NCBI GenBank assembly: GCA_946186205.1
Contig: CAMHMH010000001.1
Span: 310,001-374,000 of the forward strand
DNA length: 64,000 nucleotides
Source: an uncultured Fretibacterium sp.
GTDB taxonomy: Bacteria > Synergistota > Synergistia > Synergistales > Aminobacteriaceae
Direction of reading: 5' to 3'
Below are positions 15,247 through 35,722 of this stretch, piece after piece. The stretch's first letter is position 1. Each line of letters opens with the position of its first letter. The translations under genes and the position numbers were made by a program. Below the pieces are notes generated by a model. The model saw only the letters and a program-made list of their open reading frames with translations. It made no database searches and had not been told where the DNA came from.

Positions 15247-15249
15247 CAT

Positions 15250-16359: not shown

Positions 16360-16368
16360 AATCTGCTG

Positions 16369-16374: not shown

Positions 16375-16419
16375 GCGTGTCAAGGGGATATATTTCAAGA
16401 GGGGGAGAGGTCAGCTGAT

Positions 16420-16587: not shown

Positions 16588-16873
16588 TATAAAAGTCGAA
16601 CAGAATGCAACACTCGGAGCGAACACGACACAAATAGGCCAGCAGAATAATTATAACGGCATAACGGTGTCAGAGGCTTTAGATTTGGTGCGTACAGTAT
16701 CTGAAGCACAATATCTCAAGATGAAGCCTGAATTGCTTGAAGCACTCAAAGATAAGTTTGATAGTGAATTTGAAAAAAGGTTTGAAGAGGAATTCGCAAA
16801 GCATGTTGCTACAGATGAGGAATTCCAAGAGATGCTTGACGAACTTTATGGAACTTCAAATAATGTTCAATGA
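16577..16873 (+). CDS. Small protein with TQIG/QNNY motif (98 residues)
   Basis: A 98-residue protein starting GTG at 16577 with AGGAGG upstream. The N-terminus carries IKVEQNATLGANTTQIGQQN followed by NYNGITVSEALDLV, sharing its motif with the preceding 55-residue product; the rest is strongly acidic and helical (FEKRFEEEFAKHVATDEEF). Short proteins with an asparagine-rich TQIG/QNNY-like N-terminal motif occur as N-terminal parts of some defence and signalling proteins, but I cannot name a family. Its last 11 bases overlap the hsdR start, so hsdR translation is probably coupled to it. Confidence 0.72.
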   Translation: MSDNIKVEQNATLGANTTQIGQQNNYNGITVSEALDLVRTVSEAQYLKMKPELLEALKDKFDSEFEKRFEEEFAKHVATDEEFQEMLDELYGTSNNVQ

Positions 16874-19664
16874 AGCCAATACTATCGAAGATATGATCCT
16901 CTCCGCGCTTCAGTCTGTAGGCTGGAAATATATCCCACCTGACGAAATGCCCCGCGCTGACTCTGATGTCATGGCCGAGCCAATGCTCCGAAACGCATTA
17001 ATCCGGCTCAATCCCGAAATAGCGCAAGACCCTTCACGGGCTGACGAAGTGATATACAGGCTGCGGAATTTTATCGCGGGCGCACAGCCTCAAAATCTTG
17101 TCTCGGACAATGAACGCTTCAGACGGTTGTTGTTTGATGAGAACTCGTACCCGTTTGGCGATGACGGCGAAATGATGTCGGTGAAATTTTTCGGAGCTTC
17201 GAGTCAGAATGAGTGCGTAATCACAAATCAATGGACATTCCCCCGCAAAGAAGGCGGAAAACGACTCGACATCGTATTATTGATTAACGGGCTTCCTGTT
17301 GCGGTTGGCGAAATGAAATCCCCGGTGCGCTCTGCTGTCTCGTGGGTTGACGGAGCGAATGACATTCACGCATACGAGAAGAGCATACCCGCAATGTTTG
17401 TGCCTAACGTGCTGAACTTTTCGACAGACGGCAAAATGTACCGTTACGGCTCTGTGAATATGCCCGTAAAATTCTGGAGTCCTTGGCGGGTGAATGATGA
17501 AGGGACTCTGCTTTCGGTTCGTGAAAGTGTTTCGGACATGCTAACGCCGGAAAAGGTGCTTGACATAATGCGGTACTTCACGCTTTTTGCGACGGACTCG
17601 AATCACCGCAAGTACAAGATAATCTGCCGCCGTCAGCAGTATGAAGCCGCGAACATGATTGTGAAGCGTGTGATTGCCGGGCAGCCTAAGCAGGGGTTAA
17701 TCTGGCACTTTCAGGGATCGGGAAAATCATTGCTGATGGTATTTGCCGCGCAGAAGCTGCGCATGACACCTGAGCTGAAGAATCCGACAGTAGTAATTGT
17801 GCTTGACAGGCTAGACCTTGAGACGCAAATCACCGGGACATTCAACGCCGCCGATGTTCCGAACATGGCCGAGCTCGCGACAAAAGAAGAGCTGCTGCGG
17901 TTTTTCCGGCAAGACATGAGGAAGGCAGCAATCACGACGATATTCAGATTCGGAGATGTTGACGGAGTGCTGAATGAGCGCGGGAATATCATAGTGATGG
18001 CAGATGAGGCGCACAGGACTCAGGAGGGCGATTTAGGCGTGAAGATGAGAACTGCGCTGCCCAATGCGTTTTTCTTTGGCTTGACCGGGACACCGATTAA
18101 CCGTTCGGACAAGAATACATTTCGTACATTCGGAGCTGTTGAGGACAAAAGCGGGTACATGAGCCGATATACTTTCGGTGAGTCAGTGAGGGACGGAGCA
18201 ACGTTGCCGCTGAGTTTCGAGACGGCCATGACGGAACTGCACGTAGACCGCGAAAAGATAGACCGGGAATTTGCCGAGCTGACAGCGAATCTTACTGAGG
18301 AGGAACGTGCCGGGATTGTGAGCCGCATAGGAGTCCGCGCGATAATGAGCAGCCCTGAGCGTATCAAGAAAATCTGCGGGCATATAGTGAGTCATTACCG
18401 TGAGAAGATAGAGCCGAACGGGTACAAAGGGATGATTGTCGCGTATGACCGTGAATGCTGCCTGAAGTACAAAGAAGAGATTGACCGGTTGATGCCGCCG
18501 GAAGCCTCAGCGGTAGTAATCGACACGAACGACGACAAAGCCGGAGTCTACAGCGCATACAGGCGGGACCGGGACGAAGAAGCGAAAATCCTTGACAGAT
18601 TCCGGGAACGTTCAAGCCCTCTGAAATTCCTGATAGTAACGTCAAAATTGCTGACAGGATTCGACGCGCCTATATTGCAGGTGATGTATCTCGATAAGCC
18701 TATGAGGGATCACGGACTTATTCAGGCGGTGTGCCGGACTAACCGAACGTATGACGGGAAAACGCACGGGCTTGTAGTGGATTATGTTGGAGTGTTCGAT
18801 AACGCAGCGGAGTCTCTGAGGTTTGACGAGTCGGAAATGAAAGCGGTGATCCGCAACATCGAGGAAGTGAAGCGTCAAATTCCCGGGCTCATGAAAAAGT
18901 GCTTGGATTATTTTCCGGGTATCGACAAAAAAATACCGGGCTGGAAGGGTCTTGAACTGGCACAGAAATTTTTGCCGACAGATAACATCAAGGACTCATT
19001 CGGAGCGGATTACCGTATGCTAAATCGTGCGTGGGACTATGTATCGCCGGATAAGATTCTTGCGCGTTACGAGGAGGATTACTGCTGGCTGTCTCGTGTG
19101 TATGAGTCAGTGAGGCCTGATAACGGTATCGGCGCGCTTGTGTGGGCTGAATTGGGCGCGAAGACTCTTGAGCTTGTACACAAAAATATTGATGTGGGAG
19201 AAATTAAGAGTGATGACGAAATTCTGACACTTGACGGAAATTTTGATGGCGGGCCTGAAACGGAGCGTCATGAAATTGAGACAGACTTAACCGCGAGGAT
19301 AAACGCCCACAAGAACGAGTCAATGTATCAGCAATTAGGTGAGAAAGTCGAACGCCTGAAGGAACAATTAGAGCTTGGGCTGATAACGAGCGCGGAATAT
19401 CTTCGTGGAATGCGTGAGATTGCGCGTGAGATGGATAAGATCGAAAGTCTGACAAAACTTTTCAGTGGAATGAATGTAACCTCAGATCAAATAATCCGTG
19501 ATATAGATGACAGCGTAAGCGCGGCGATGTTCGAGAACTGGCAGAAGACAGTAGAAGGCGTGCGGAGCATGAAAGCTGCATTGCGTCAGGTGATGTGGCT
19601 GAAATACGGCATAAGGGACGAGGAAATATTCAGCGGTGTGTATAAATATATTGAAATATATTGA
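16863..19664 (+). CDS. hsdR: Type I restriction endonuclease subunit HsdR
   Basis: A protein of about 933 residues. Near residue 130 is a PD-(D/E)xK nuclease signature (RLDIVLLI ... GEMKSP). Then comes a superfamily 2 translocase with Walker A QGSGKS (Lys288), DEAH (Asp381-His384), GLTGTPI and VVDYVGVFDN. It cuts unmethylated DNA after ATP-driven translocation together with HsdM and HsdS. The reading frame is open back to 16737, but that part reads as a shadow of the upstream gene; I prefer the ATG at 16863, overlapping its stop. An ATG at 16848 is an alternative. Nothing essential appears missing, so the enzyme is probably active. Confidence 0.93.
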   Translation: MFNEANTIEDMILSALQSVGWKYIPPDEMPRADSDVMAEPMLRNALIRLNPEIAQDPSRADEVIYRLRNFIAGAQPQNLVSDNERFRRLLFDENSYPFGDDGEMMSVKFFGASSQNECVITNQWTFPRKEGGKRLDIVLLINGLPVAVGEMKSPVRSAVSWVDGANDIHAYEKSIPAMFVPNVLNFSTDGKMYRYGSVNMPVKFWSPWRVNDEGTLLSVRESVSDMLTPEKVLDIMRYFTLFATDSNHRKYKIICRRQQYEAANMIVKRVIAGQPKQGLIWHFQGSGKSLLMVFAAQKLRMTPELKNPTVVIVLDRLDLETQITGTFNAADVPNMAELATKEELLRFFRQDMRKAAITTIFRFGDVDGVLNERGNIIVMADEAHRTQEGDLGVKMRTALPNAFFFGLTGTPINRSDKNTFRTFGAVEDKSGYMSRYTFGESVRDGATLPLSFETAMTELHVDREKIDREFAELTANLTEEERAGIVSRIGVRAIMSSPERIKKICGHIVSHYREKIEPNGYKGMIVAYDRECCLKYKEEIDRLMPPEASAVVIDTNDDKAGVYSAYRRDRDEEAKILDRFRERSSPLKFLIVTSKLLTGFDAPILQVMYLDKPMRDHGLIQAVCRTNRTYDGKTHGLVVDYVGVFDNAAESLRFDESEMKAVIRNIEEVKRQIPGLMKKCLDYFPGIDKKIPGWKGLELAQKFLPTDNIKDSFGADYRMLNRAWDYVSPDKILARYEEDYCWLSRVYESVRPDNGIGALVWAELGAKTLELVHKNIDVGEIKSDDEILTLDGNFDGGPETERHEIETDLTARINAHKNESMYQQLGEKVERLKEQLELGLITSAEYLRGMREIAREMDKIESLTKLFSGMNVTSDQIIRDIDDSVSAAMFENWQKTVEGVRSMKAALRQVMWLKYGIRDEEIFSGVYKYIEIY

Positions 19665-20274: not shown

Positions 20275-20519
20275 GCTGGAAGCGTTGACATACTCCCCAT
20301 GCTTCAAGGCAGGCGATTCTTGTATCAACAAACCTTGCACTCCTATATTTATGATTAATGCCTCAATCACTGCACAGCTTCCGCCCTTTTCACCCGGCAG
20401 CTTGATGCTTCTCTGATACGCAAGGTCTTTAATTTACGTCCTCTATACGCTGCCCTGCCCTTGATGGTTTTTCCGAACCTATAGCTAAAGCAAGGGGCTT
20501 TCTGGCTGTATGTCATATC
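20275..20519 (-). mobile_element. Probable remnant of an IS200/IS605-type tnpB 3' end
   Basis: On the minus strand two overlapping frames read MTYSQKAPCFSYRFGKTIKG (from 20514) and, after a frame change, SIKLPGEKGGSCAVIEALII followed by VQGLLIQESPALKHGEYVN. The pattern LPG-x-K-x-G-S-x-A-V-x-E-A with a following QESPAL...GEYV is like the C-terminal tail of TnpB-type proteins. The DNA TTGACATACTCCCC at 20285 followed by a small hairpin resembles an IS605-family end. There is no intact transposase. Assignment is tentative. Confidence 0.4.
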
Positions 20520-20631
20520 ATGTTTTATTGAGTGAGGCAGAATACAGCGGGCAATATCTTATCGCTGGCAGAAAGATTTTTTGCCGGGATTATTGCAGCG
20601 TGTATTTGCCTGGCCTGTTCAGCCTTGTCTG

Positions 20632-20853: not shown

Positions 20854-20933
20854 TTTTGATAATGACAAACTCAATCCCCTAATGAACGAAGTAATTAACA
20901 ACAAGTGAATATCTCAAAGAAAGGTTAAGCAGT

Positions 20934-23900
20934 ATGGACACAAGAAACAAGAAAGTCCCATTGTCGCAGACTCAGTCAGGGATATATTTCGAGTCTTTGA
21001 GGATGGGCAGAGGTGCTTATAACAGGCACTACCTTTACACGCTCGACAAGAGTCTTGACATGGAACGGTTAGCGCGAGCCATCGAAAAAACTGTGCAGGC
21101 TCATCCCTATATGGAAGTCCGAATCTCACAAGACAATGAAACAATCACACAATCAATTCCAGAATCACAATCCCAATATCACCAGACTGTAGAGAGAATG
21201 ACCGAATCACAATGGCAGGATCGTCTGAAGACTCTCACTTCCGAACCGCTGACATTAAACGGCGGGCGTCTGTTCCGCTTTGACCTCGCCGAGACTGAAT
21301 GCGGGAAATACATGCTGAGGACGACTCATCACATAGCCTTTGACGGAATGTCTCACAATGTCATGATGAGCGATATTGCGGCGGCGTATAACGGTGAGAG
21401 TCTGACTCAGGAAACGTATAACGCTCTCGATGCCGCAGAGGAAGAGTCAAAGCTCAGGGAGAGTGAAGAATACCAGCGCGCTGAAGAATGGTACGTGAAA
21501 AATTTTTCCGGGCTTGATGCCGTGAGCCTGCCTCTTTCGGACAACAGCGGGAATAATGCGGGTGAATGTCTCGTTTACACGTTCGATTTGTCCGAAGATG
21601 ACATGAAGAAATTCTGCCGTGAAAAGAATATCAGCACATCGGCTTTCACTTCAGGAGCATTCGCAATTCTCATAGGATTTTACACTAACCAGAAGGAGTC
21701 TTTGTTCTCGACAATCTATCATGGCCGGAAGAAGAACGCCGCGCATATCATCGGAATGTTCGTCAAGACTCTACCAGTTCATGCGAAATGGGACAGCGGT
21801 ACACGGGTCGACGATTTTCTCATGAGACTGTCAGAACAGATTCAGGGCGCAAGGGACAATGATATATTCTCGTTTGCTGACGTTAAGACTATATGCCCTA
21901 TAAATGACGCTCCCTTGTTCGCTTGGCACGGCGCAATAAGGACTCATGATGAAGTCTGCGGAATGCCCGCAAGTGAAGAGCTGTTAGACAAAACCACAAA
22001 TGACACCGCGCTGTCTGTCGAATTGATGTCGGTGCCTTCGGGAATGTCATTGAGAGTCGAATACGATTCGGGGAAGTACACACGTGAATTTAGAGAGACG
22101 CTCGCGGAAACTTACGGCAATATTCTCCGTCAGCTTATGACAAAAGAATTTCTGCGCGAGATTGAGCCATGCACGCAGGGAACAAAGACCGGGAGTCTCA
22201 ATGATACAGATTACCCGCTCACAAAGACTCAGGAAGGAATATTCTTCGAGACTCAATCACACCCGGGGACGACAATCTATAACGCTGCGACTCTTCTTGA
22301 GCTTGCCGGGACTCCTGATGTTTCACGCATAAGGAACGCTGTAATCTCTGCGGTGAAAGCTCATCCGTATTTGCTGACTCGTTTCTTCCTGAACGGCAGC
22401 GGGGAAATACGGCAGAAACGCCCGGAAGATTTTGCGTTTGATGTTGAGGAATTGAGATTCACGAATCTTGACGAGCTGAAGAAGAATCTTTTGCGGCCTT
22501 ATGACCTTCTGAATGACAGACTCATACGCGCCAATATTGCCCGGACTGATGACGGAAAAATTTACGTTTACTTCGACATGAATCACGCTGTCTTTGACGG
22601 AAGGTCGCTGCAAATTTTCCTGCGTGATATTGAGCGTTCGTATAACGGTGAGACATTAGAGCCTGAGAAATTCAGCGGATGGGAAGCGGCACTGCTTGAA
22701 GAACGTTTGCGTAACAGCTCACAGTACCAGAAAGCAAAGGACTATTACACCGAACTGTTCAAGGATTGCGAGCCTGACTGTTTGCCATTGCCTGACATGC
22801 AGGAAGACTCAGAAGGAAGCGTATCTATGATTATTCCCGGCCATGCTGACGCGGAGTCAATCAGGAAATTCTGCGACGATAACGGCATAAGTGAGAATGA
22901 TTTTTACACGGCTGCTTTCGGATATGTCATCGCAGGTTTCAGCGGAAGGGAGGACTCAATCTTCACGACAGTCAACAGCGGACGGAGCGACTCAAGATTC
23001 ATGGACAGCGTTTCAATGTTCGAGAGGATTTGCCCGGTAATCTGCAAAACCGCAAACTGCACTGTGCTTGATTATATCCGTGAGACAAAACGACAGCTAA
23101 CCGACAGCCTTTCTTACGGGGCGTACTCATTCGCCGAAATGAGTCATGACTTGGGAATCACGTCTGATATTCTCTTTTCGTTTCAGGGGGCTGCGAGCGG
23201 AAAAATAGAGTCATTCTGCGGGTGTCCATGCTCTGAAGTTGATGTATCACTTGACGAGGCAAAAGCAGGTATTGAGTTGTCAGTCTTCACGGAGAACGGC
23301 GGACTCTCGTATCACTTCACCTGCTGTAAAAATCTCTGCACTGAGGACTTCATTCGGAGTTTCGCGGGCGTTTATGATAATGTTCTCACGGAGTTTACGC
23401 GCAAAAAGAATCTCAATGAGGCAGAATTTCTTGACGCTGAAACAGAGTCCCTTCTCGACAATGCGAACGATACTGCAACCGATTATGACAAGTCGGACAT
23501 TGTAACCCAGTTCCGAAAAGCCGCAGAGAAATTCCCGGACAATATAGCGGTTGTGTACAAAGAGAAGCGTTACACGTACAAAGAAGCTGACGAGATCACC
23601 GAGAGAATCGCGGCATACCTGAAGGAGCGCGGAATAGGTTCGGAAGATGTTGTGTCGGTATTGATTCCGCGCTGTGAGTATATGGTGCTTGCCTCGCTTG
23701 GAGTCCTCAAGACTTGCGCCGCTTATCAGCCGTTAGATCCCTCGTACCCTCCTGAACGGCTCGAATTTATGATTACGGACGCTTCCGCAAAATTGTTGAT
23801 TGCAGACAGGAATCTCATCAAAGAATGCGTTCCGAATTATCACGGTGAAATACTCTTCACTGACGAAATACCCTCGCTCCCTCATGCAGAGAAACTCACG

Positions 23901-26900
23901 GAGACTCCGAGCCCTTCAAATCTCTTCATCATGCTTTACACTTCAGGCTCAACAGGAGTCCCCAAAGGCGTAATGCTCGAACATGGTAATCTCTCCTGCT
24001 TCACAGCGTGGTACAAGAGGACGACTCATCTCACGGAAAAATCAAGAGTGGCGGCTTATGCGAGTTACGGATTCGACGCTTGCATGATGGACTTATACCC
24101 CGCACTTACATCGGGCGCGGCTGTCCATATACTTGACGAGGAAATAAGGCTTGATTTCGCGGCTGTACAGAAATATTTTGACGCTGAGGGAATAACACAC
24201 TGCTTCATGACGACTCAGGTAGGGCGGCAGTTCGCGGAATTTTACACGGGGCAATCGCTGAAATATTTATCTGTCGGCGGTGAAAGGCTTGCTCCAATTT
24301 TCCCGGAGAATAAGAGTTTCACTTTGCTTAATGGCTACGGCCCTACAGAATGCACAATCTTTACGACTACTTTACCGGTGAAGAAACTGTACAGGCGGAT
24401 TCCAATCGGTGCGGCACTCGACAACGTGAAGCTGTATATTGTTGACAGGAACGGGCGCAGGCTTCCTCCGTATATGCCCGGCGAGCTTTGGGTTTCAGGC
24501 CATCAGGTCGGGCGCGGCTACTTCAACAGGGCGGAGAAAAACGCAGAGAGCTTCATAGCAAATCCCTTCACGAATGAGGAAGGCTATACGAGAGTCTACA
24601 GGACAGGTGATATTGTCCGCAATGTTTACGACGGCGGGAAGCTGGTTATTGATTTCGTAGGCAGGAATGACGCTCAGGTGAAAATACGCGGCTTCCGTAT
24701 TGAGCTTACAGAAATTGAATCGGTTATCAGGAAATTTCCGGGCGTGAAAGATGTAACAGTTCAGGCTTTCGACTCAGACAGCGGGGAAAAATATCTTGCG
24801 GCTTATGTCGTCAGTGATGAAAAAATTGATGTTAATGCGCTGAATGAATTTATCGGCCAGGACAAACCGCCCTATATGATTCCCGCCGTAACGATTCAGA
24901 TTGATGCAATCCCGCTGAATCAGAATCAGAAAGTCAACCGCAAAGCACTTCCCAAGCCCGAAATCACAAACACACACAAAGAAGCCGAGTCAGTTTCAGC
25001 ACCTTTGAACGTTTTGGAGAAAGACATAAAGGACATAATAGCGGGGATAACAGGCACGGACTCTTTCAGCATAACAGACACTCTCGGCAATTTCGGCCTC
25101 ACGTCAATATCAAGCATACGGCTCGCGACTCAGATCTACAAGAAATACGGCGTACAGTTGCAGGTGAGAAAACTTGTCTCAGAAGGAAGCGTGCAGAGCA
25201 TAGAGAATGAAATTCTGCGGAAAGTTTTTGCTGAGACTCACGAGGAAAAATCAGAGCCAACAGAATCACATGAGCCGTCAAAACATTCATGCGGACTCAC
25301 GTTTGAACAGCAGGGAGTTTACGCGGATTGCATGATTGACCCGTCATCTACAGTCTACAACACGCCGTTTGCTGTGAAGATTCCTGAAGGTGTTACAGCA
25401 GAACAGCTCCGGGACTCATTGTTCGGAGTCGTTGAAGCTCATCCGTATATACTTTGCAGGTTCACGGCCAGCGAGAACAACGAGATAATACAGGAGTCAA
25501 TTCCCGGTTTCATGCTCGACATTCCCGAAAAAGAAATGACTCCTGAGGATTACGAGTCTTACCGCAAAGAAGGCTTTGTGCGTCCGTTCGATCTCGCTGA
25601 AGGGCCGCTTGTGCGTTTTGAGATTGTGAGGGCTGACGGGCTTTATCTCCTAATGGATATGCATCATCTTGTTACTGACGGTGCGTCTGTTGATATTTTC
25701 CTTCAGCAGTTGTGCGAGAAACTTGACGGCCATGAAATAGAGCATGAAGAATACAGCTACTACGATTACGCCAGAGACGAGAGAATGACGGAGGGAGCAG
25801 ATGACTTTTTCGCCGGGAGAATGGCACTCTCAGACGAAGCGACTCAGATTATCCCGGATATTTACGGCGAAAATCTCAAGCACTCGGAAGAATCCGTTAG
25901 CGTGAAGACAGACATTAAGGCTGTGAAAGATTTTGCCCTCAAGCACAGCGCAACGCCCGCTGAAATTTACCTTGCGGCGGGATATATCACCTTCTCGCGG
26001 TTCGTGTGTGATGATACTGTCTCAATCATGACAATCTCAAACGGGCGCAGCAACATGAAGATTTCCGGCACTCTGGGAATGTTCGTTAATTCACTGCCTC
26101 TTGTTGAAACTGTCGACAGCTCCGAAAATGTTTCAGACTTCATCAAACGTTCAGCAAAAAATTTCAGCGATACACTTCTCCATGAAAATTACCCGTTCGC
26201 GCGCGCCGCCAAAAAGTTTGATTTTCATCCGAGTATCTCATACGCATACCAAATAGGAGTCCTCAGCGAGTACAGGACGAAATACGGAGCATTAACCGCA
26301 GAAGAGCTTACATCTGACAAGGCAAAAATCCCCGTTGCGGTCTTCATCACAGGAACAGAGGACGAAGCCGAAATCAAGATAAGCTACGACACCGCGCTGT
26401 ACAGCCGTGAAATAATGCAGAGCCTTGCAGAGTGCTACGAAAACGCCGTGCGAGGACTCATGACTCATGACAAGATTTCTGACATAAGCATAACGGACTC
26501 GACTCAATGGGCAATCCTCGACTCGTACAATCCTGAATGGGATCTGAATTACGACATTAACGACACGCCCGTATCAGCCTTCAGGAGGAACGCAAAGAAC
26601 AACCCCGGTAAAGTTGCGGCGGTCTTCAGGGATAAGCAGTACACATACAGGGAGCTTGACGAACTCACAGACAGACTCGCGGCGAAAATCTACAGCAGAA
26701 TGAAAGCCATCACAGGCCGGGAAAATATATCGGAGGAAGTAATCTCAATCATTCTCCCCCGGAATGAAAACGTATTCATTCTCCCTCTTGCTGTTGTGAA
26801 GGCCGGGTGCGCTTATGAGCCGTTAGATCCTTCATACCCGCAGGAGAGACTCAATTTCATGGTGAAAGACTCAGGCGCGAGACTCCTAATCGCTGATGAC

Positions 26901-29534
26901 TCTTTGCGCTCTCTCGTGAATGAATATCAAGGCGATGTTCTTACGGTCAGCGAGTTATACGCAATGAATGACTCGAACGACATACCGCCGAGTCCGTCCC
27001 CTGAAAATTTGTTCGTCATGCTCTACACTTCAGGCAGTACAGGGACTCCGAAAGGCTGCCAGATTGAACACCGTAATGTTGTCGCGCTCGCTCACGGAAT
27101 CGAGTCAGCAGGATTCTACAGGGAAGATGACAGAATAGCCGATTATGCTTCATTCGGTTTTGACGTGAACATGGCCGATGTTTTCTGCACGCTCATTAAC
27201 GGCGGGACGGTTTATATCATTCCTGAGGACATACGCATGAATCTTGACTCACTCGCAGAATATTTTGATGAGGCAGGAATTACGGCGTTATTGCTCACGA
27301 CTCAAGTTGGCGTTCAGTTCATGCAGAATTACCCGCACTGCAAGACGCTGCGACTCCTCTTAATCGCGGGTGAAAAACTTCCGGCTGTAGATCCTTCCGG
27401 CTTAAGCTACACGATCGCAAACGGCTACGGCCCTACGGAGAACTGTTACGGCGTAAGTATCTTCCCGATTCGCAAATGGGAGAAGAATATCCCAATCGGC
27501 AAGCCATTCCCGACAATTCACGGCTACATTCTCGACAAGACAGGACACAGACTCCCAGCAGGCGCGGCGGGTGAATACTGCCTCTCAGGGCCGCAAGTCA
27601 GCAGGGGCTATCTTAACCGCCCGGACAAAACAGCAGAGGCTTACGAGCAATGCCCCTATAACAACTTCCGCATGTATCACACCGGGGACATTGTGCGCTA
27701 CCGTCAGGATGGAAATGTAGAGTTTGTTGGGCGCAAAGACGGACAAGTGAAGATTCGCGGCTTCAGGATTGAGACGAAAGAAATCGAGTCGGTGATTCGG
27801 AATTTCGGCGGCGTTAAAGATGCTACTGTTCAGGCTTACGATTACGAGTCAGGCGGGAAATATCTTGCTGCGTTCGTTGTGAGCGATAATGCAATCGACA
27901 CGGAGAAGTTGCGCGAGTTCATAAAGAGTCAGAAGCCCGCGTATATGGTTCCTGCTGTGATAATGCAGATTGAGAAAGTGCCGCTGACTGTGAATCAGAA
28001 AGTTGACAGAAAAGCATTGCCCAAGCCGGAATTGCAGAGGCGTGAATATGTCGCTCCAGTCGGAAAAACTGAGGAGGATTTCTGCGGGATATTCGGCGAA
28101 ATTTTAGGGCTTGAGAGAGTCAGCGCGGAAGATGATTTCTTTGAGCTTGGCGGAAGCTCCGTTATCGCAATGAAGGTTGTTATAGCGGCGGGCAAAAAGG
28201 GATATTCCATCGTCTACAATGATGTCTTCAAGTACACGACTCCGAGACTCCTCGCTGAGTTTGTTACGGGTTCAGGAAGTCAGCCGGAAGAAATCACAGC
28301 CGCTATTGCGCCGTCAGCAGGAAAAATTTCAGAGATAGACTCGGAAGGCTACGACTATTCAGCGATTCATGCACTGCTCGCACAAAACACGATGGAGGCA
28401 TTCAGGAGCGGAGAACGTCAGAGATTAGACGATGTACTTTTAGCGGGCGCGACGGGGTATCTTGGGATTCATGTTCTTGAAGAGATTATCACGTCAACAG
28501 AGTCAAAAGTTTTCTGCCTCGTCAGACCCAAAGAAGGCAGCAGCGGTGAAAAGCGTCTGAGGAATATCCTTGAGTATTACTTTGGCCATGACCACGCAGA
28601 ATATTTTGCTTCACGTATCAATGTCATTGAGGGCGATGCGACAAACCCGGACTCGCTGAGAGATTTTGCGGCTGACTCAAGCATGACCGTCATAAACTGC
28701 GCGGCATCCGTAAAGCATTTCGCAAAAGGCAGCGAGATCGAACGCACTAACGTTGACTCGGTGAAAAATATCGCGGCATGGTGCGAGGAAAATAATTCAC
28801 GGCTCGTTCACATTTCAACAGGAAGCATTATCGGCGGGCGGAAAAATGGACTCCCCCCTGAAGGTTACCGCTTTGATGAGCATGTGTTATTTGCCGGGCA
28901 GACTGTGAATCACAATCAGTACATTCACTCGAAATTCATGGCCGAGAGATTCATTTACGAGGAAATTTTGACGCACGGACTGAACGCAAAAGTATTCAGA
29001 GTCGGAGACCTTGCGCCACGATTGTCTGACGGAAAATTTCAGGTCAACTTCAGGACGAACAATATCATGAACTCGCTTAGAGCCTATAAGATTCTCGGAA
29101 TGGTGAATTTTGCGACGCTTGCAGATGAGATTGAGTTCTCGCCGATTGACTGCCTCGCAAAAGCCGTTATCACACTCGCAGGAACTCCGAAAGAATGTAT
29201 ATGCTTCATGCCCATCAACCCGCACCGGGCATTAATGCAGGACGTTTTCACGGAGATTTGCGGACTTGGCTATGAGATTCGGACGGCTGAAGATGACGAA
29301 CTGAAGCAGGCACTTGACGCGGCATTGTCCGACAGCACGAAGAACAGCGCGGTTTCTCCGTTAGTTGCGTACTCAAACAAGAGCGGCATTCAGGATCTCA
29401 GCTGGAACGATATAGATATGAGCTTCACAACACAAGTGCTTTACCGTCTGGGCTTCTCATGGCCGCAAACAGGAGCGGAATATATCAGGCAGTTCATCAG
29501 GAAACTTGACGGGCTTTCATTCTTTGACGAGTAA
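20934..29534 (+). CDS. Nonribosomal peptide synthetase, C-C-A-T-C-A-T-reductase
   Basis: A 2,866-residue NRPS. Domains in order: C1 (about 6-420; HHIAFDG, His132-Asp137); C2 (425-840; first His replaced, NHAVFDG at 550-556); A1 (850-1345; YTSGSTGVPKG, NGYGPTE, NQKVNRKALP); T1 (carrier Ser1391 in FGLTSIS); C3 (1452-1870; HHLVTDG from His1577); A2 (1875-2340); T2 (Ser2409 in LGGSS); and a thioester reductase domain (2490-2866; GATGYLG at 2505-2511, catalytic Tyr2663 and Lys2667). It should activate two amino acids, join them, and release the chain reductively as an aldehyde or alcohol; aldehydes of such dipeptides can cyclise to pyrazinones. By eye the A1 pocket is mostly hydrophobic (D-A-M-F-S-G-G-I-F) and A2 is unusual (D-V-A-L-L-A-G-Y-G); neither is assigned. 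It lies 5 bases before the second NRPS gene. Confidence 0.95.
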   Translation: MDTRNKKVPLSQTQSGIYFESLRMGRGAYNRHYLYTLDKSLDMERLARAIEKTVQAHPYMEVRISQDNETITQSIPESQSQYHQTVERMTESQWQDRLKTLTSEPLTLNGGRLFRFDLAETECGKYMLRTTHHIAFDGMSHNVMMSDIAAAYNGESLTQETYNALDAAEEESKLRESEEYQRAEEWYVKNFSGLDAVSLPLSDNSGNNAGECLVYTFDLSEDDMKKFCREKNISTSAFTSGAFAILIGFYTNQKESLFSTIYHGRKKNAAHIIGMFVKTLPVHAKWDSGTRVDDFLMRLSEQIQGARDNDIFSFADVKTICPINDAPLFAWHGAIRTHDEVCGMPASEELLDKTTNDTALSVELMSVPSGMSLRVEYDSGKYTREFRETLAETYGNILRQLMTKEFLREIEPCTQGTKTGSLNDTDYPLTKTQEGIFFETQSHPGTTIYNAATLLELAGTPDVSRIRNAVISAVKAHPYLLTRFFLNGSGEIRQKRPEDFAFDVEELRFTNLDELKKNLLRPYDLLNDRLIRANIARTDDGKIYVYFDMNHAVFDGRSLQIFLRDIERSYNGETLEPEKFSGWEAALLEERLRNSSQYQKAKDYYTELFKDCEPDCLPLPDMQEDSEGSVSMIIPGHADAESIRKFCDDNGISENDFYTAAFGYVIAGFSGREDSIFTTVNSGRSDSRFMDSVSMFERICPVICKTANCTVLDYIRETKRQLTDSLSYGAYSFAEMSHDLGITSDILFSFQGAASGKIESFCGCPCSEVDVSLDEAKAGIELSVFTENGGLSYHFTCCKNLCTEDFIRSFAGVYDNVLTEFTRKKNLNEAEFLDAETESLLDNANDTATDYDKSDIVTQFRKAAEKFPDNIAVVYKEKRYTYKEADEITERIAAYLKERGIGSEDVVSVLIPRCEYMVLASLGVLKTCAAYQPLDPSYPPERLEFMITDASAKLLIADRNLIKECVPNYHGEILFTDEIPSLPHAEKLTETPSPSNLFIMLYTSGSTGVPKGVMLEHGNLSCFTAWYKRTTHLTEKSRVAAYASYGFDACMMDLYPALTSGAAVHILDEEIRLDFAAVQKYFDAEGITHCFMTTQVGRQFAEFYTGQSLKYLSVGGERLAPIFPENKSFTLLNGYGPTECTIFTTTLPVKKLYRRIPIGAALDNVKLYIVDRNGRRLPPYMPGELWVSGHQVGRGYFNRAEKNAESFIANPFTNEEGYTRVYRTGDIVRNVYDGGKLVIDFVGRNDAQVKIRGFRIELTEIESVIRKFPGVKDVTVQAFDSDSGEKYLAAYVVSDEKIDVNALNEFIGQDKPPYMIPAVTIQIDAIPLNQNQKVNRKALPKPEITNTHKEAESVSAPLNVLEKDIKDIIAGITGTDSFSITDTLGNFGLTSISSIRLATQIYKKYGVQLQVRKLVSEGSVQSIENEILRKVFAETHEEKSEPTESHEPSKHSCGLTFEQQGVYADCMIDPSSTVYNTPFAVKIPEGVTAEQLRDSLFGVVEAHPYILCRFTASENNEIIQESIPGFMLDIPEKEMTPEDYESYRKEGFVRPFDLAEGPLVRFEIVRADGLYLLMDMHHLVTDGASVDIFLQQLCEKLDGHEIEHEEYSYYDYARDERMTEGADDFFAGRMALSDEATQIIPDIYGENLKHSEESVSVKTDIKAVKDFALKHSATPAEIYLAAGYITFSRFVCDDTVSIMTISNGRSNMKISGTLGMFVNSLPLVETVDSSENVSDFIKRSAKNFSDTLLHENYPFARAAKKFDFHPSISYAYQIGVLSEYRTKYGALTAEELTSDKAKIPVAVFITGTEDEAEIKISYDTALYSREIMQSLAECYENAVRGLMTHDKISDISITDSTQWAILDSYNPEWDLNYDINDTPVSAFRRNAKNNPGKVAAVFRDKQYTYRELDELTDRLAAKIYSRMKAITGRENISEEVISIILPRNENVFILPLAVVKAGCAYEPLDPSYPQERLNFMVKDSGARLLIADDSLRSLVNEYQGDVLTVSELYAMNDSNDIPPSPSPENLFVMLYTSGSTGTPKGCQIEHRNVVALAHGIESAGFYREDDRIADYASFGFDVNMADVFCTLINGGTVYIIPEDIRMNLDSLAEYFDEAGITALLLTTQVGVQFMQNYPHCKTLRLLLIAGEKLPAVDPSGLSYTIANGYGPTENCYGVSIFPIRKWEKNIPIGKPFPTIHGYILDKTGHRLPAGAAGEYCLSGPQVSRGYLNRPDKTAEAYEQCPYNNFRMYHTGDIVRYRQDGNVEFVGRKDGQVKIRGFRIETKEIESVIRNFGGVKDATVQAYDYESGGKYLAAFVVSDNAIDTEKLREFIKSQKPAYMVPAVIMQIEKVPLTVNQKVDRKALPKPELQRREYVAPVGKTEEDFCGIFGEILGLERVSAEDDFFELGGSSVIAMKVVIAAGKKGYSIVYNDVFKYTTPRLLAEFVTGSGSQPEEITAAIAPSAGKISEIDSEGYDYSAIHALLAQNTMEAFRSGERQRLDDVLLAGATGYLGIHVLEEIITSTESKVFCLVRPKEGSSGEKRLRNILEYYFGHDHAEYFASRINVIEGDATNPDSLRDFAADSSMTVINCAASVKHFAKGSEIERTNVDSVKNIAAWCEENNSRLVHISTGSIIGGRKNGLPPEGYRFDEHVLFAGQTVNHNQYIHSKFMAERFIYEEILTHGLNAKVFRVGDLAPRLSDGKFQVNFRTNNIMNSLRAYKILGMVNFATLADEIEFSPIDCLAKAVITLAGTPKECICFMPINPHRALMQDVFTEICGLGYEIRTAEDDELKQALDAALSDSTKNSAVSPLVAYSNKSGIQDLSWNDIDMSFTTQVLYRLGFSWPQTGAEYIRQFIRKLDGLSFFDE

Positions 29535-29539
29535 ATATC

Positions 29540-32500
29540 ATGACACTAATTCACGAAACCGTATCACAATACGCCGTGAACAATCCCACAAGGAAGGCTG
29601 CTGAGGACTCACTCGGCAGTCTCTCTTACAGGGAGCTTGACGGCAGAAGCAACACAGGCGCGAAAATTCTTCATGGACTCGGAGTAACAGCGGGGGACTC
29701 TGTCGGCGTTTATGTTCCGTATGTGAAGGACGTAATAACGTGTGCTTTGTCCGTGTGGAAGACGGGCGGAGTCTATGTCCCTATGGATGACGCTTATCCC
29801 GCTGAGAGGCTCGAATATATCCTCAGAGACTCAAACGCAAAAGCTATCCTCACATGCCATTCTCTTTGGGACAACAAGCCGCTTGATTTCCCGGCAGAAA
29901 AAGTAATCTTCATTGACGGCATAACAGAATGCGGCTCATCATTCACACCCTGTAACACAATCACACCGAAATCACCCGCAATGATTCTCTACACTTCCGG
30001 CACAACTGGACGGCCTAAAGGAGTTCTTCACAGGCACGAATTTTTGACTCACATTGTCGACTGGATGAACATAGGCGAGGGCTTCGAGCTGTCAGAAGAC
30101 TCACGAGTGGGACTCATATCTCGTTTTACGTTCGTTGCGACTGTAACATTCATGTTCGGCGCGTTGCTGAAGGGAGGAACGTTATACTTTGCTCCCGAAA
30201 ACGCAAGGAATGATCTTGAGCATCTGCATGAATTTCTGACGGACAAAAAGATTACTCACATATTCATTGCGTCAGGACTCGCGGCAATTCTCGCTGAGGA
30301 TTACGACATTTCCGGCGTGAATGTTTTTGCGGCGGGTGAAAAGCTCCCTCACTTCCGGGCGTTTTCTGACTCCGTATATCTCCGCAACATTTACGGATCA
30401 ACAGAGATCGGAGTCGTTACGTCAGCGGAAATTCACGGCCAGGAGAATCCCATCACAATAGGCAAGCCCGGTCCGGGAACAAAAGCAATGCTCGTTGACG
30501 AAAATCTCAGTCCGTCAAAACCTGATGAAGCAGGAGAACTCCTCATAGCGTATGAATACATGTCGAATCAATATCTCAATCTCCCGGAGCAGACCGCAGA
30601 GAAATGGATTCATATTGACGGCCTCACTTGGTACAGAACCGGCGACAGCGCAACAATGACTCATGAAGGGGATATATGCATACTCGGACGCACCGACAAC
30701 ATGATAAAGCTGCGGGGATTCAGAATCGAAACGGGCGAGGTTGAGTCGCAGGTGTCAAAAGCAGTATCACGAACCGGGCGCGATGACGTGAAAAACATTG
30801 TCGTTTGTCTTCGAACCGTAAGCAGGAATGATTATCTCGTCTGCTACTACGAGTCGGAAAATGATCTTGCCCCTGACGAAATCAGCGCGGTGAAAAGCGA
30901 GTCCGCAAAATATCTCGCTGACTACATGATACCCGATATATTCATGAGAGTCGCCCGAATGCCCCGCAACCTTAACGGGAAAATCATACGCAAAGACCTT
31001 CCGCAGCCAAACACACACACACACGAAATCACCGCCCTTGACAGTGAAGTACTTGCGCGAGTCGTGTGGGCTGTCTCTGACGTTCTCGGAATCTCATCGG
31101 CTGAACCTGAAGACACATTCACGGAGCTTGGCGGCTCATCAATCACGGCCATGAAGCTCGCCTCACTCTTACGGCCTCAGGGCATCAAGGTTACGACAGC
31201 GCAGATACTGAAGCTGAACGTGTTGCGGAAAATTGCTGACAGTGCTGAAGTCGATTACACTAAATTGTGGTCAGAGGAAGAATACAGCGCAATCATTTCC
31301 GACTTTGCTTCACGCGGCGAGCACATACAGAAAGTGCTTCCCATTACGGCACAACAAGATGATATGCTGTTCGACTACTTGCTTTACCCGGACAGAAACA
31401 GCTTCAGATCCGTTTACATGCTTCAGGCTGACAGCGTTATAACAGAGGAAAATTTGCGGCTCGCGCTTGATACTGTCTCACAAGAAAATGAAGAGCTGCG
31501 ATCATCTATCGTATTCCGCCGGACTCGCGTTATACAGCAGGTGATAACAGACAGGAAGATCCCCGCAAAATTCGTGAACATGAACAATCTTGATGATAAG
31601 AATCTGCAAGTCGAATGGAATATGTTTCAACGCCCCTTTGATTTGCAGAGAGACTCATTAATGCGAGTCGTTTGCGGAGAGTTTTACGGGAAAAGTTTCC
31701 TGTACATAATGACGAGTCATATCAGCTTCACAAAAGAACAGTCGCGTAAATATATCGCCCGCATAATGTCAGTGCTTGAGGAAAAATATCCTGATGACAA
31801 ATCGATTCATGGCTGGCGGGAAATTTTTGACGGGACTCTCACGGAAAATTTTGCGGAAAAAACGAAATCCCGCGGCGAGTCAAAGCTGATGGAACTTGAC
31901 CGATCAAGAAGCAATATCCCTCCCGAAATCTGCATTTACTCAGAGAACAGCGGCCCTAAGATGACGTTTATTCACACAGGCAACACAGGAAGCGAAGCAT
32001 ATTACCGTCTCGCGGACAGAATCAGGGACAAGATTTCATTCTCAGTGATTGAGCCGTTCAACTTGTGGCACATTGAGCAGGCTACATACGGTATACCGAA
32101 CATCGCAAAAAGGTACATAGAGATTCTCAAGCGTCATCAGCCCGAAGGCCCGTATATTTTGGGCGGATGGTGCTACGGCGGAATGATAGCTCACGAAATG
32201 GCATGTCAGCTTCAGGACTCAGGCGAGGAAGTGAAATATCTCTTCATGCTTGACTCACACGCAACGACAGACCCCGCGTTAAGGCAAATGGCACAAAGCA
32301 TGTATGACGCTTCGGGGCGTGAATATTTCGAGACAAGCCCGCTTTTTTCTGACCTGCGAGAAGCCGGAATGCTTGAAACTATGATCATCAACTCGGAGCA
32401 TGTTTATCACGACATGGCCGCTCATGTTCCGTCATTCTTCAGCGGCCCGGTTACTTACTTCAAGCCCGATGTGATTCCGGCAGAATCTTCCGGGGACGCT

Positions 32501-32671
32501 CGCAAATATTGGGAGAGAATGATGGAGTTCCCCGCCGGCAATTACAGACAGTTCTGCAACGGTGATTTGTTCCGAATCGTTCACACTCCTCACGAGCATG
32601 ATTTGATGATGGACGATGCTTCACTTGATGTTATTGTCCCGGAAATTTTCAGGGCATTGGGCATAAAGTGA
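29540..32671 (+). CDS. NRPS, A-T-degenerate C-thioesterase with Cys nucleophile
   Basis: A 1,043-residue NRPS. An adenylation domain (1-495; LYTSGTTGRPKG, IYGSTE, YRTGD, GKIIRK) has valine (Val199) where alpha-amino-acid-activating domains hold the Asp that binds the amino group, so its substrate may not be an ordinary alpha-amino acid. A carrier domain follows (Ser534 in LGGSS). Residues about 590-745 look like the N-terminal half of a condensation domain whose active-site motif is ruined (SHISFTK at 726-732). The C-terminus (about 800-1043) is an alpha/beta-hydrolase thioesterase with GGWCYGG, placing Cys878 as nucleophile instead of Ser, with Asp in FMLDSH and His in PHEHD. It follows the first NRPS by 5 bases and overlaps the phosphopantetheinyl transferase by 4. 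Confidence 0.93.
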   Translation: MTLIHETVSQYAVNNPTRKAAEDSLGSLSYRELDGRSNTGAKILHGLGVTAGDSVGVYVPYVKDVITCALSVWKTGGVYVPMDDAYPAERLEYILRDSNAKAILTCHSLWDNKPLDFPAEKVIFIDGITECGSSFTPCNTITPKSPAMILYTSGTTGRPKGVLHRHEFLTHIVDWMNIGEGFELSEDSRVGLISRFTFVATVTFMFGALLKGGTLYFAPENARNDLEHLHEFLTDKKITHIFIASGLAAILAEDYDISGVNVFAAGEKLPHFRAFSDSVYLRNIYGSTEIGVVTSAEIHGQENPITIGKPGPGTKAMLVDENLSPSKPDEAGELLIAYEYMSNQYLNLPEQTAEKWIHIDGLTWYRTGDSATMTHEGDICILGRTDNMIKLRGFRIETGEVESQVSKAVSRTGRDDVKNIVVCLRTVSRNDYLVCYYESENDLAPDEISAVKSESAKYLADYMIPDIFMRVARMPRNLNGKIIRKDLPQPNTHTHEITALDSEVLARVVWAVSDVLGISSAEPEDTFTELGGSSITAMKLASLLRPQGIKVTTAQILKLNVLRKIADSAEVDYTKLWSEEEYSAIISDFASRGEHIQKVLPITAQQDDMLFDYLLYPDRNSFRSVYMLQADSVITEENLRLALDTVSQENEELRSSIVFRRTRVIQQVITDRKIPAKFVNMNNLDDKNLQVEWNMFQRPFDLQRDSLMRVVCGEFYGKSFLYIMTSHISFTKEQSRKYIARIMSVLEEKYPDDKSIHGWREIFDGTLTENFAEKTKSRGESKLMELDRSRSNIPPEICIYSENSGPKMTFIHTGNTGSEAYYRLADRIRDKISFSVIEPFNLWHIEQATYGIPNIAKRYIEILKRHQPEGPYILGGWCYGGMIAHEMACQLQDSGEEVKYLFMLDSHATTDPALRQMAQSMYDASGREYFETSPLFSDLREAGMLETMIINSEHVYHDMAAHVPSFFSGPVTYFKPDVIPAESSGDARKYWERMMEFPAGNYRQFCNGDLFRIVHTPHEHDLMMDDASLDVIVPEIFRALGIK

Positions 32672-33285
32672 TAAGGCTGACTCTTCTCGACATTCGCACA
32701 CTCAAGCCGAAAGCTGAAGAGTTACTGCGTGGACTCCCTGAAGACTTACGGAACAAGGCATTGCGTTACAGAAAAGAAGATGACCAGTTACGGAGCATAG
32801 GGTCATCTTTTCTTTTGCTCAAAGCCTCAAAGGGTCATGAGATTCATTACAGCCCGGAAGGAAAGCCGTTTGCTGACGGAGAACTTTACTTTAACATTTC
32901 ACACAGCGGGGACTATGTTGTTCTTGCTGAAGCTGACTCGCCTGTTGGTGTTGACGTTGAGAGAGTCGCGGACATTGGGATTAATGACGGCTTGAAGGAT
33001 ATAGCACTGACTGAGAGGGAAAAACTTTTTGTGAAAGATTCATTGCTGAGATTCTATGTTGTGTGGACGAGAAAAGAGAGCCTCGTTAAATGCGAGGGAA
33101 GCGGATTCGTTTCAGAGCCTTGCGAAATTGATTCGATCCCTGAGAATGATTTTGACGAGCCTGTGAAGTATGAGGGAAAATATTACCGCGTTGAAAGTTT
33201 CATGACTGGCGGGCATATAATATCAGCGGCGGTATTGACCGGGATGGCCGGCAAGCAAGGCATAAAGCATAACAGCAGGGGTTAA
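32668..33285 (+). CDS. Sfp-type 4'-phosphopantetheinyl transferase
   Basis: A 205-residue enzyme of the Sfp family with the motifs FNISHSGDYV, VGVDVERV (magnesium-binding Asp and Glu) and FYVVWTRKESLVKCEGSG (W-x-x-K-E-x-x-x-K). It transfers the phosphopantetheine arm of coenzyme A to the carrier serines of the two NRPS proteins. The start is GTG at 32668, overlapping the NRPS stop (GTGA), so it is part of the same transcript. Its presence makes the cluster self-sufficient for activation. Confidence 0.93.
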   Translation: MIRLTLLDIRTLKPKAEELLRGLPEDLRNKALRYRKEDDQLRSIGSSFLLLKASKGHEIHYSPEGKPFADGELYFNISHSGDYVVLAEADSPVGVDVERVADIGINDGLKDIALTEREKLFVKDSLLRFYVVWTRKESLVKCEGSGFVSEPCEIDSIPENDFDEPVKYEGKYYRVESFMTGGHIISAAVLTGMAGKQGIKHNSRG

Positions 33286-33564: not shown

Positions 33565-35043
33565 TTGTTGCTATATATAGGAATTGATTTAGGAACTTCT
33601 GCCGTAAAACTGATTCTGATGGACGAAAGCGGCAGGATTCATAATACAGTTTCGCGCGAGTATCCTATATTTTATCCTCATTCCGGCTGGTCAGAACAGA
33701 ATCCAGAAGACTGGTACACGCAAACCCTTCAGGGAATCGCAGAGCTCACAGCCAATGCAGACAAAGCGAGGATTGCGGGAATAAGCTGCGGAGGCCAGAT
33801 GCACGGACTTGTCATTCTTGACGAAAGCGACAGAGTTATACGGCCTGCGATTTTGTGGAATGACGGAAGAACCGCGGCTGAAACAGATTACCTCAACAAC
33901 ATAATCGGCAAGAAAAAACTTTCAGACTACACAGCAAATATAGCCTTCTCAGGATTCACTGCTCCAAAAATTTTATGGCTTAAGAACAATGAGCCGGAGA
34001 ATTACAAGAGAATCCGCAAAATCATGCTCCCAAAAGATTACATAGCCTACAAATTATCCGGGGCTTTCTGCACTGATTATTCTGATGCGTCGGGAATGCT
34101 TCTTCTTGACGTTAAGCACCGCAGATGGTCAAAGGAGATGTGCGGTATTTGCGGTGTTGATGAGTCGCAGCTTCCGAAACTTTACGAGAGCTATGAGAAA
34201 GTCGGAAACATTCTGCCCGCCCTCGCAAAAGAATTAGGACTCTCAGAAAGAGTCATTATCGCGGCAGGAGCAGGAGACAACGCAGCCGCCGCCATAGGCA
34301 CAGGGACAGTAGGCAACGGACGCTGCAATATATCTCTTGGGACGAGCGGAACTATTTTTATCTCGTCAGACTCTTTCCGTGTTGATGAGAATAACGCTCT
34401 TCACTCTTTCGCGCACGCTGACGGACATTATCACCTTATGGGCTGTATGCTTAGTGCTGCTTCGTGCAATAAGTGGTGGCTTGAGGAAATTTTGAGGACA
34501 AATGACTACTCGTCTGAGCAGAGCGCAATAAAACGTCTCGGCGAAAATCACGTGTTCTTCCTGCCATACCTGATGGGCGAGCGTTCCCCGTGGAATAATC
34601 CTTCAGCAAGAGGAACATTTACGGGACTCACTATGGACTCTTCACGGGCGGACATGACTCAGGCAGTACTTGAGGGAGTCAGCTTTGCCGTCCGGGATAT
34701 GTACGAGTTCGCAAAGAAAACGGGAGTCAGTCTCACAAGTACGATGATCTGCGGAGGAGGAGCAAAGAGTCCTTTGTGGCGCAAGATGATCGCAAACATC
34801 CTCAACATGAGAGTCGATGTTCCTGTCTCAGAGGAAGGCCCCGCGATGGGAGCTGCTATGCTCGCTATGACTGCATGCGGAGAATACAAGACCGTTAATG
34901 AGGCGGCGCAGGCTATCGTAAAGGTTGCGAAATCTGAAGAGCCTGACCCGGAACTCGTGAGAAAGTATGAAGCGCGTTACCAGCAATTCAGGACAATTTA
35001 TCCCGCAATGCAGAAAGTTTTCGGGATAATTTCGGCTCAATAA
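33565..35043 (+). CDS. xylB: FGGY-family sugar kinase, xylulokinase-like
   Basis: A 492-residue two-domain carbohydrate kinase with GIDLGTSAVKLILMDESGRI at the N-terminus, GISCGGQMHGLV, PAILWNDGRT and a C-terminal MICGGGAKSPLWRKMIANIL block, all typical of xylulokinase. It would phosphorylate D-xylulose (or a related ketose) to feed the pentose phosphate pathway. The start is a TTG at 33565, preceded by AAGAAGGG. It heads an operon with a DUF4867 protein, a FucI-like isomerase and an ABC transporter. Because the isomerase is not XylA, the physiological ketose may be xylulose, ribulose or fuculose. Confidence 0.88.
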   Translation: MLLYIGIDLGTSAVKLILMDESGRIHNTVSREYPIFYPHSGWSEQNPEDWYTQTLQGIAELTANADKARIAGISCGGQMHGLVILDESDRVIRPAILWNDGRTAAETDYLNNIIGKKKLSDYTANIAFSGFTAPKILWLKNNEPENYKRIRKIMLPKDYIAYKLSGAFCTDYSDASGMLLLDVKHRRWSKEMCGICGVDESQLPKLYESYEKVGNILPALAKELGLSERVIIAAGAGDNAAAAIGTGTVGNGRCNISLGTSGTIFISSDSFRVDENNALHSFAHADGHYHLMGCMLSAASCNKWWLEEILRTNDYSSEQSAIKRLGENHVFFLPYLMGERSPWNNPSARGTFTGLTMDSSRADMTQAVLEGVSFAVRDMYEFAKKTGVSLTSTMICGGGAKSPLWRKMIANILNMRVDVPVSEEGPAMGAAMLAMTACGEYKTVNEAAQAIVKVAKSEEPDPELVRKYEARYQQFRTIYPAMQKVFGIISAQ

Positions 35044-35058
35044 GAAAAGGTGATGATC

Positions 35059-35700
35059 ATGAAGCTATACAGCGTGAAAGACAATGAGTTCAGGCCGTAC
35101 GGAAGAGTTATAGAAGGCTATGACTTCAGCGAATTGATTTCAGTCCTCAGAGATTCAACGCCATGCCCTGACAGCGGCACTGTTTATGTAACGTCCGATA
35201 AAAATCTCGAAAGCCTCGATGCAGCGAAAATTATCGGAGCGAATGTTTACGGACGCATGCCCATAGAGATTGGCTACTGCAACGGGCATAACACAAAGTT
35301 AAACGCTCTCGAATATCACAGGGACTCAGAAGTGAATATAGCCGCTGATGATGTGATTCTCCTGCTTGCCAAGAAGGAAGATGTTAATGATGATTACTCC
35401 CTCGACACGTCAAAAGTGAAAGCGTTTCTTGTTCCTTCCGGCGTTGCTGTGGAGGTTTACGCAACATCGCTTCACTACGCGCCCTGCCACGTGAAAAATG
35501 AAGGCTTCCGAGTCGCTGTAGTTCTCCCGAAAGGAACGAACGAGGCATTAACCACAAAGACAGAAATATTATCCCCTGAAGACAAGCTGTTGACCCACGT
35601 AAACAAATGGCTCATAGCTCATCCCGAAGGCGGCTGTCCCGAAGGCTCATTCGTTGGGCTGACGGGTAAAAACATAGATACAGCAGAAGATATTGATTAA
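35059..35700 (+). CDS. DUF4867 family protein
   Basis: A protein of about 213 residues that fits the DUF4867 family, a cupin-like group usually beside fucose-isomerase-like genes; the phrase NALEYHRDSEVNIAADDVIL and the CH-containing LHYAPCHV are typical. Function is unproven; a role as an accessory sugar epimerase or isomerase is possible. I prefer the ATG at 35059, 8 bases after AAAAGG; GTG and ATG codons at 35050 and 35053 are alternatives. It lies between the kinase and the isomerase genes. Confidence 0.78.
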   Translation: MKLYSVKDNEFRPYGRVIEGYDFSELISVLRDSTPCPDSGTVYVTSDKNLESLDAAKIIGANVYGRMPIEIGYCNGHNTKLNALEYHRDSEVNIAADDVILLLAKKEDVNDDYSLDTSKVKAFLVPSGVAVEVYATSLHYAPCHVKNEGFRVAVVLPKGTNEALTTKTEILSPEDKLLTHVNKWLIAHPEGGCPEGSFVGLTGKNIDTAEDID

Positions 35701-35722
35701 CATTGAGGAGGGTTTATTGTAC

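Follow-up and report, generated by a model that had tools for sequence, protein, structure and literature searches.

A reductase-terminated peptide synthetase and a co-diverging A-T-C'-TE partner synthetase in a rumen-type Synergistota gene cluster

Gut bacterial peptide aldehydes are reported protease inhibitors. Nonribosomal peptide synthetases (NRPSs) that end in a reductase (R) domain, and dipeptide aldehydes, are already known from gut anaerobes (PMC12327764). Other synthetases activate alpha-keto acids, and their adenylation (A) domains have an aliphatic residue in place of Asp235 (PMC11253843, PMC10949194). In StsA the conserved proline is a methionine, and changing this methionine to proline abolishes activity (PMC11253843, PMC10949194), while McyG activates L-Phe despite a valine at position 235 (PMC11253843). 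Here we analyse a gene cluster in which a reductase-ended NRPS (NRPS1) is followed by a second synthetase (NRPS2) that has a keto-acid-like A-domain signature and ends in a thioesterase (TE). The cluster lies within a stretch of 64,000 nucleotides, referred to as the window, on an 829 kb contig of a 2.75 Mb genome. Among named relatives, the nearest to the window are an uncultured Fretibacterium and a Synergistaceae bacterium from goat reticulum; the host is therefore taken to be a rumen-type member of the Synergistota.

The cluster consists of three open, uninterrupted reading frames, all on the forward strand: NRPS1 (20934-29534; 2866 amino acids), NRPS2 (29540-32671; 1043 amino acids) and an Sfp-type phosphopantetheinyl transferase (PPTase; 32668-33285; 205 amino acids) recognized by Pfam and NCBIfam matches. 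NRPS1 and NRPS2 are separated by five bases, and the GTG start of the PPTase overlaps the NRPS2 stop in a four-base junction. Pfam places three Condensation, two AMP-binding and two PP-binding stretches and an NAD_binding_4 reductase in NRPS1, which with the motifs gives the order C1-C2-A1-T1-C3-A2-T2-R (C, condensation; T, carrier). In NRPS2 it places AMP-binding, PP-binding and Thioesterase matches and a Condensation match restricted to positions 1-123 of 456, giving A-T-C'-TE. The architecture proposed in a sequence-only reading, a C-C-A-T-C-A-T-reductase protein and an A-T-degenerate C-thioesterase protein tightly packed with a linked PPTase, is thus borne out, as is its view of a self-contained cluster with two different release domains, which is intact here. 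Orthologues of NRPS1 that are 85-94% identical occur in four congeners. For all NRPS domains open to comparison with congeners dN/dS lies in the range 0.06-0.22 (0.06-0.20 among the NRPS1 domains); against congener G047 the lowest value is 0.06 for A2 of NRPS1 and the highest 0.21 for the A domain of NRPS2. Constraint on the PPTase is looser (0.32 against G047 and 0.43 against a further congener, G062). These ratios rule out a set of pseudogenes and indicate that the cluster is under purifying selection and is not decaying, even if its front end is partly altered.

NRPS1 begins with C1 (20949-22193), which has an intact HHIAFDG motif and is 84.5% identical to C1 of G047 (dN/dS 0.20). C2 (22215-23453), assigned by Pfam and motif, reads NHAVFDG, in which the first histidine is replaced and the catalytic second histidine retained. 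A1 (23496-24956; code DAMFSGGIFK) and T1 (25023-25208; Pfam) are followed by C3 (25293-26501; Pfam and the motif HHLVTDG), A2 (26574-28019; code DVALLAGYGK), which is the most constrained domain, and T2 (28071-28268; Pfam). The A2 code of the relatives is mostly DV[AS]L[VI][GA]GCGK. The terminal R domain (28431-29498) carries both TGxxGxxG and YxxxK, so that NRPS1 is a reductase-terminated NRPS of the NAD(P)-dependent kind.

The two adjacent N-terminal C domains are probably the scar of a recent deletion. In G047 the same protein, in a frame of 3473 amino acids, contains a 605-residue A-T unit (A0-T0) exactly between C1 and C2, and the domains that flank this unit are 84-90% identical to those of the window. 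At the corresponding joint in the window (22200-22223; NDTDYP|LTK) the C-A linker motif NDTDYP after C1 passes directly into the residues that open C2 (LTKTQEGIFF). A short sequence, GATT[A/C]CCC, is common to this joint and to the DNA at both borders of the G047 unit. Deletion in the window is likelier than insertion in G047 because two Clostridia (L041 and L047) place an A-T module before a C domain that is 45-47% identical to C2. On the sequence alone the joint may also be an assembly error. A third congener, G062, joins a different N-terminal C region to a part from A1 to R whose individual domains are 91-97% identical. In none of the other NRPS1s examined were complete tandem C domains found, and their front ends vary: some are of a C-A1 type of about 2430-2530 amino acids, G047 and G090 have C-A-T-C-A1, the clostridial G095 and G099 have A-T-C-A-T-C-A1, four Bacteroidota genomes (G097, G098, G100 and G101) have A-T-C-A1 with an A domain that begins at most about 20 residues from the start codon, and L067 starts with A1. 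By sequence, the conserved core of NRPS1 is A1-T1-C3-A2-T2-R, with a front end that is evolutionarily interchangeable. After the loss of A0-T0, C1 and C2 of the window may be idle, the chain starting at A1 as in the A1-first NRPS1s; alternatively, C2 may take up an acyl group delivered in trans. In a Selenomonadaceae locus (L053; G110:C119:783-6971) the NRPS1 match contains three TGA codons and one TAA codon next to an intact NRPS2, which reflects either decay or an assembly error.

The A domain of NRPS2 (29549-31009; code VATFFAIVVK) lacks Asp235 and has YGSTE in place of YGPTE. Position 235 is never Asp in the 40 NRPS2s aligned (V in 33, I in five, M and S in one each; V in the window), being aliphatic in 39 of them, and the proline of YGPTE is replaced in all 40 (S in 33, C in seven); A1 and A2 of NRPS1 keep YGP. 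The window NRPS2 thus shows both features of the keto-acid A domains, an aliphatic residue at 235 and a replaced proline, and for this reason NRPS2 probably loads an amine-free acid, of the alpha-keto type or another, although the signature falls short of proof since McyG activates L-Phe with valine at the same position. The cluster contains no ketoreductase or other tailoring gene that would point to a particular acid, and a full-text literature search with five code strings returned no paper. We claim nothing finer than 'amine-free' for the predicted NRPS2 substrate and assign no residue to A1 or A2.

The remainder of NRPS2 comprises a T domain with GGSS (31070-31240), the C' segment (31328-31879) and the TE (31922-32668). 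C' is a remnant of the N-lobe of a condensation domain; it has neither both lobes nor HHxxxDG, a motif that is not conserved in the 40 sequences, and is therefore not a functional condensation domain. It is present in nearly all members of the family, the NRPS2 of a Treponema genome (L082) being a plain A-T-TE protein. The TE has Cys878 as its nucleophile (codon 32171-32173), with an Asp in LDSHA and a His in PHEHD; the GWCYGG motif around the cysteine is invariant in the NRPS2 alignment, and LDSHA and PHEHD occur in most sequences. A predicted structure of C'-TE (pLDDT 83.5) resembles the TE of NocB (Z 25.0, r.m.s.d. 3.0, 224 residues aligned) and AB3403 (Z 24.4, r.m.s.d. 2.5, 234 residues aligned), with matches that cover the TE part only, and the type II thioesterase RifR (Z 22.5).

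Relatives of NRPS2 were sought with the C'-TE alignment through two short peptide patterns, an incomplete scan whose counts are lower bounds, and at least 61 loci were found. Among these, 46 (L039-L084) are clear relatives, 43-95% identical, mostly over the whole of C'-TE and in some cases over part of it; L085-L099 (26-52% over short stretches) were set aside as other thioesterases. A search of plasmids matched 2594 records, all below 60% identity, and the best of these on inspection were ordinary multimodular NRPSs. The 46 relatives span Synergistota, Clostridia, Negativicutes, Bacteroidota, Coriobacteriaceae and Treponema, come mostly from genomes titled rumen or reticulum, and include the cultured Butyrivibrio sp. 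YAB3001. In the NRPS2 tree the Bacteroidota sequences stand in two separate places, one of them nested among Clostridia, a placement that fits a small number of transfers across phylum borders. Recombinase-like frames, judged by eye to be of the site-specific type, lie near NRPS2 or NRPS1 at L044:3933-5510 and L153:3-1427 and are a possible trace of transfer.

The sequence-only reading had proposed looking for the same gene order in related genomes, and the NRPS1/NRPS2 pair indeed recurs across phyla: NRPS1 adjoins NRPS2 in about two thirds of the 46 loci, usually with an A2 that is 70-79% identical, and its last module, C3-A2-T2-R, is conserved in the pair. NRPS1 lies elsewhere in the genome for L068, L071 and L039 (G062). 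In the window's own family (83 genomes searched) close orthologues of NRPS1 and NRPS2 occur in the same five genomes, on different contigs in one, although these five are kin and do not represent five independent events. A four-member clade (L049, L055, L066 and L078) has an intact active-site Cys motif, and no close NRPS1 was detected in its genomes; its NRPS2 may act alone. No neighbouring gene common to these solitary NRPS2s was found when one was looked for.

The pair also diverges together. Over 25 genomes, pairwise distances between NRPS2 A domains correlate best with those of C3 and R of NRPS1 (rho 0.91 for each), followed by A2 (0.79), T2 (0.68), A1 (0.55) and T1 (0.41), and the NRPS2 code groups track the A2 codes. 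Linkage may yield part of this covariation, with C3-A2-T2-R adjoining NRPS2 in most genomes. Yet C3, which lies farther from NRPS2 than A2 does, correlates better, and the unlinked pair of L068 gives 0.91 with C3 and 0.23 with A1; in the unlinked pair of Butyrivibrio YAB3001 the covariation is weak (0.43). Furthermore, NRPS2 accompanies every front-end type of NRPS1, including the A-first types that have no N-terminal C domain. Feeding tandem C domains is not its general role, since it is kept beside A-first NRPS1s and follows C3 and R rather than A1 and T1. We conclude from these patterns that NRPS2 is likely to serve the terminal module, which would form the aldehyde, or what that module produces, and not the N-terminal C domains.

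The reading that we prefer, and that we consider about evenly balanced between right and wrong, is a two-synthetase peptide-aldehyde pathway in which NRPS1 makes the aldehyde and NRPS2 discharges a keto-like acid through its Cys-TE at the aldehyde-end module. The PPTase would arm both synthetases. NRPS1 would assemble a short peptide from the A1 residue and then the A2 residue, possibly N-acylated, and R would release it as an aldehyde, the product that such a domain implies; the sequence-only reading had drawn the same consequence, which agrees with the reported gut precedent (PMC12327764) and remains a predicted product. NRPS2 would activate an alpha-keto or similar acid onto its own carrier, from which Cys878 would take the acyl group and discharge it, by condensation or transfer, onto the aldehyde or its residue and not onto the N-terminal C domains, with C' as a structural spacer. 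Against this stand the solitary clade, the possible share of linkage in the covariation, the low Butyrivibrio value and the fact that the absence of Asp235 suits other amine-free acids as well. A more specific version, in which the Cys-TE joins an alpha-keto acid to the released aldehyde by an aldol step followed by lactone closure to give a peptide-derived hydroxy-furanone, is quite improbable; were it true, two release domains would act in sequence to give one convergent product across herbivore-gut phyla.

NRPS2 might instead work on its own, its TE dimerizing alpha-keto acids to a furanone, quinone or related compound, with the operon merely shared. Its A-T-TE order and amine-free signature are those expected of such an enzyme: enzymes of the non-reducing A-T-TE type join two aromatic alpha-keto acids (PMC9047271), and RalA and EchA are named as bacterial counterparts (PMC10316625). 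The clade without a close NRPS1 and the plain A-T-TE protein of Treponema point the same way. This does not account for a protein that co-occurs and co-diverges with the terminal module of NRPS1 and that, with few exceptions in the family, has a C' remnant in addition, and the likeness to RalA and EchA is drawn from their descriptions; we regard independent action as unlikely.

Lower still is the probability we give to the proposal of the sequence-only reading, that an unusual acid from NRPS2 enters as a starter through the tandem N-terminal C domains. Its first half is supported, in that Asp235 is absent and the proline is replaced by Ser or Cys, and in the window no A-T separates C1 from C2, which after the inferred deletion leaves C2 without a donor in cis. 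Its second half is not supported as a general role: NRPS2 is kept with the A-first NRPS1s listed above (G097, G098, G100 and G101; G095 and G099; L067), its divergence does not track A1 or T1, and complete tandem C domains were not found in the other NRPS1s examined.

There is similarly little likelihood that the Cys-TE is an acyl shuttle from the NRPS2 carrier to a carrier of NRPS1. TE-like enzymes that move acyl groups between carrier domains are documented, CmaE passing aminoacyl groups from one T domain to another and LgnA doing likewise in legonindolizidine synthesis (PMC8748450), and the invariant Cys nucleophile and the pairing with the terminal module would suit such a role. T1 and T2, however, have cognate A domains, the covariation of T2 (0.68) falls short of that of C3 or R (0.91), and the shuttles of PMC8748450 are separate proteins and not parts of a fused A-T-TE. 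Finally, an editing partner that hydrolytically clears mis-primed carriers, which the structural likeness to TEs including RifR might suggest, is very improbable, as such an enzyme would have no use for A and T domains of its own or for the conserved specificity code.

According to the sequence-only reading, the cluster holds no transporter or regulator and has only relics to its left. The stretch bounded by the type I restriction system (left) and the xylulokinase operon (right) indeed has no intact gene of either kind, but the left relic includes a piece of a MATE exporter gene (20502-20606, forward strand); this remnant and the cross-phylum distribution of the family were missed by that reading. 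In G047 the position immediately upstream of NRPS1 is taken by an intact gene (MatE in Pfam). A portion of the relic is attributed to the cluster's own exporter because 20531-20602 matches this gene (blastn, 80.6% over 72 nucleotides; tblastn, 58% over 38 amino acids) and 20908-20960, the upstream region and first codons of NRPS1, matches the corresponding G047 sequence. MatE-like genes, several fused to HATPase_c_2, occur in similar clusters (L149, L150, L151 and L154) and beside related NRPSs in L033, and BLAST matches to the MatE protein adjoin NRPS2 in L057, L058, L060 and L075. In the Prevotella locus L057 a second, different reductase NRPS (L057:12723-20153) follows a MatE-like gene next to the pair. 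The window itself contains a distant intact MatE-HATPase_c_2 fusion on the reverse strand (43465-45270), of the type that accompanies L033, L149, L150, L151 and L154. The restriction system (12255-19664) comprises two consecutive HsdM-like genes (12255-13778 and 13768-15246), HsdS (15250-16359) and HsdR (16737-19664); in G062 (L024) a different but related set (frames 26-32% identical) lies directly upstream of the unlinked NRPS2. On the right, xylulokinase, DUF4867 and sugar isomerase genes (33565-37204) are 85-95% identical in G057, where another reductase NRPS (39% identical) and a MatE-HATPase gene lie near them in place of this cluster (L033), and this flank is a possible NRPS exchange site.

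A second enzyme beside a peptide-aldehyde NRPS is conserved in such distant bacteria as Synergistota, Prevotella and Treponema and points to a shared, unexplored gut chemistry, and cultured Butyrivibrio sp. YAB3001 makes the function of NRPS2 accessible to test. The window and its congeners also capture a natural remodelling of an NRPS, in which A-T was probably lost between two C domains but NRPS2 and the terminal module with which it pairs were kept, which is useful for synthetase engineering. An A-T-C'-TE partner was described nowhere in the literature searched, which excludes most subscription journals, and 'undescribed' is accordingly provisional; text searches of two papers on rumen gene clusters (PMC8241843 and PMC12918008) turned up neither thioesterase nor aldehyde.

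Among described enzymes, ObiF shares the GxCxG motif of a Cys-nucleophile TE with NRPS2 (PMC6668435), but it acts on an N-acyl beta-hydroxy-alpha-amino acid, whereas NRPS2 has no functional C domain and no alpha-amino acid signature. The A-T-TE keto-acid synthetases (RalA, EchA and the fungal quinone and furanone enzymes) resemble NRPS2 in being separate A-T-TE proteins with an amine-free signature; they differ from NRPS2 in that the latter carries what is left of a C domain between T and TE and mostly occurs together with an aldehyde NRPS, and C' places the window protein outside the group without further domains, C' being absent only in L082. The gut dipeptide-aldehyde clusters (ruminopeptin of Ruminococcus bromii and the pyrazinone clusters), compared by description, share with the window a gut-anaerobe host and an inferred aldehyde, and the part of PMC12327764 consulted makes no mention of an A-T-C'-TE partner for them. 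AusA and AusB of the aureusimine pathway of Staphylococcus aureus (NF047350 and NF047349) are like NRPS1 and the PPTase in combining an A-T-C-A-T-R core with a dedicated PPTase. They are also the best NCBIfam matches, at 1060 bits for NRPS1 (cut-off 2500) and 54 bits for the PPTase (cut-off 225), scores at which NRPS1 lies outside the AusA equivalog family. We know of no counterpart of NRPS2 in AusAB; compared with AusA, NRPS1 of the window has extra N-terminal C domains, and the cluster adds a second synthetase, NRPS2.
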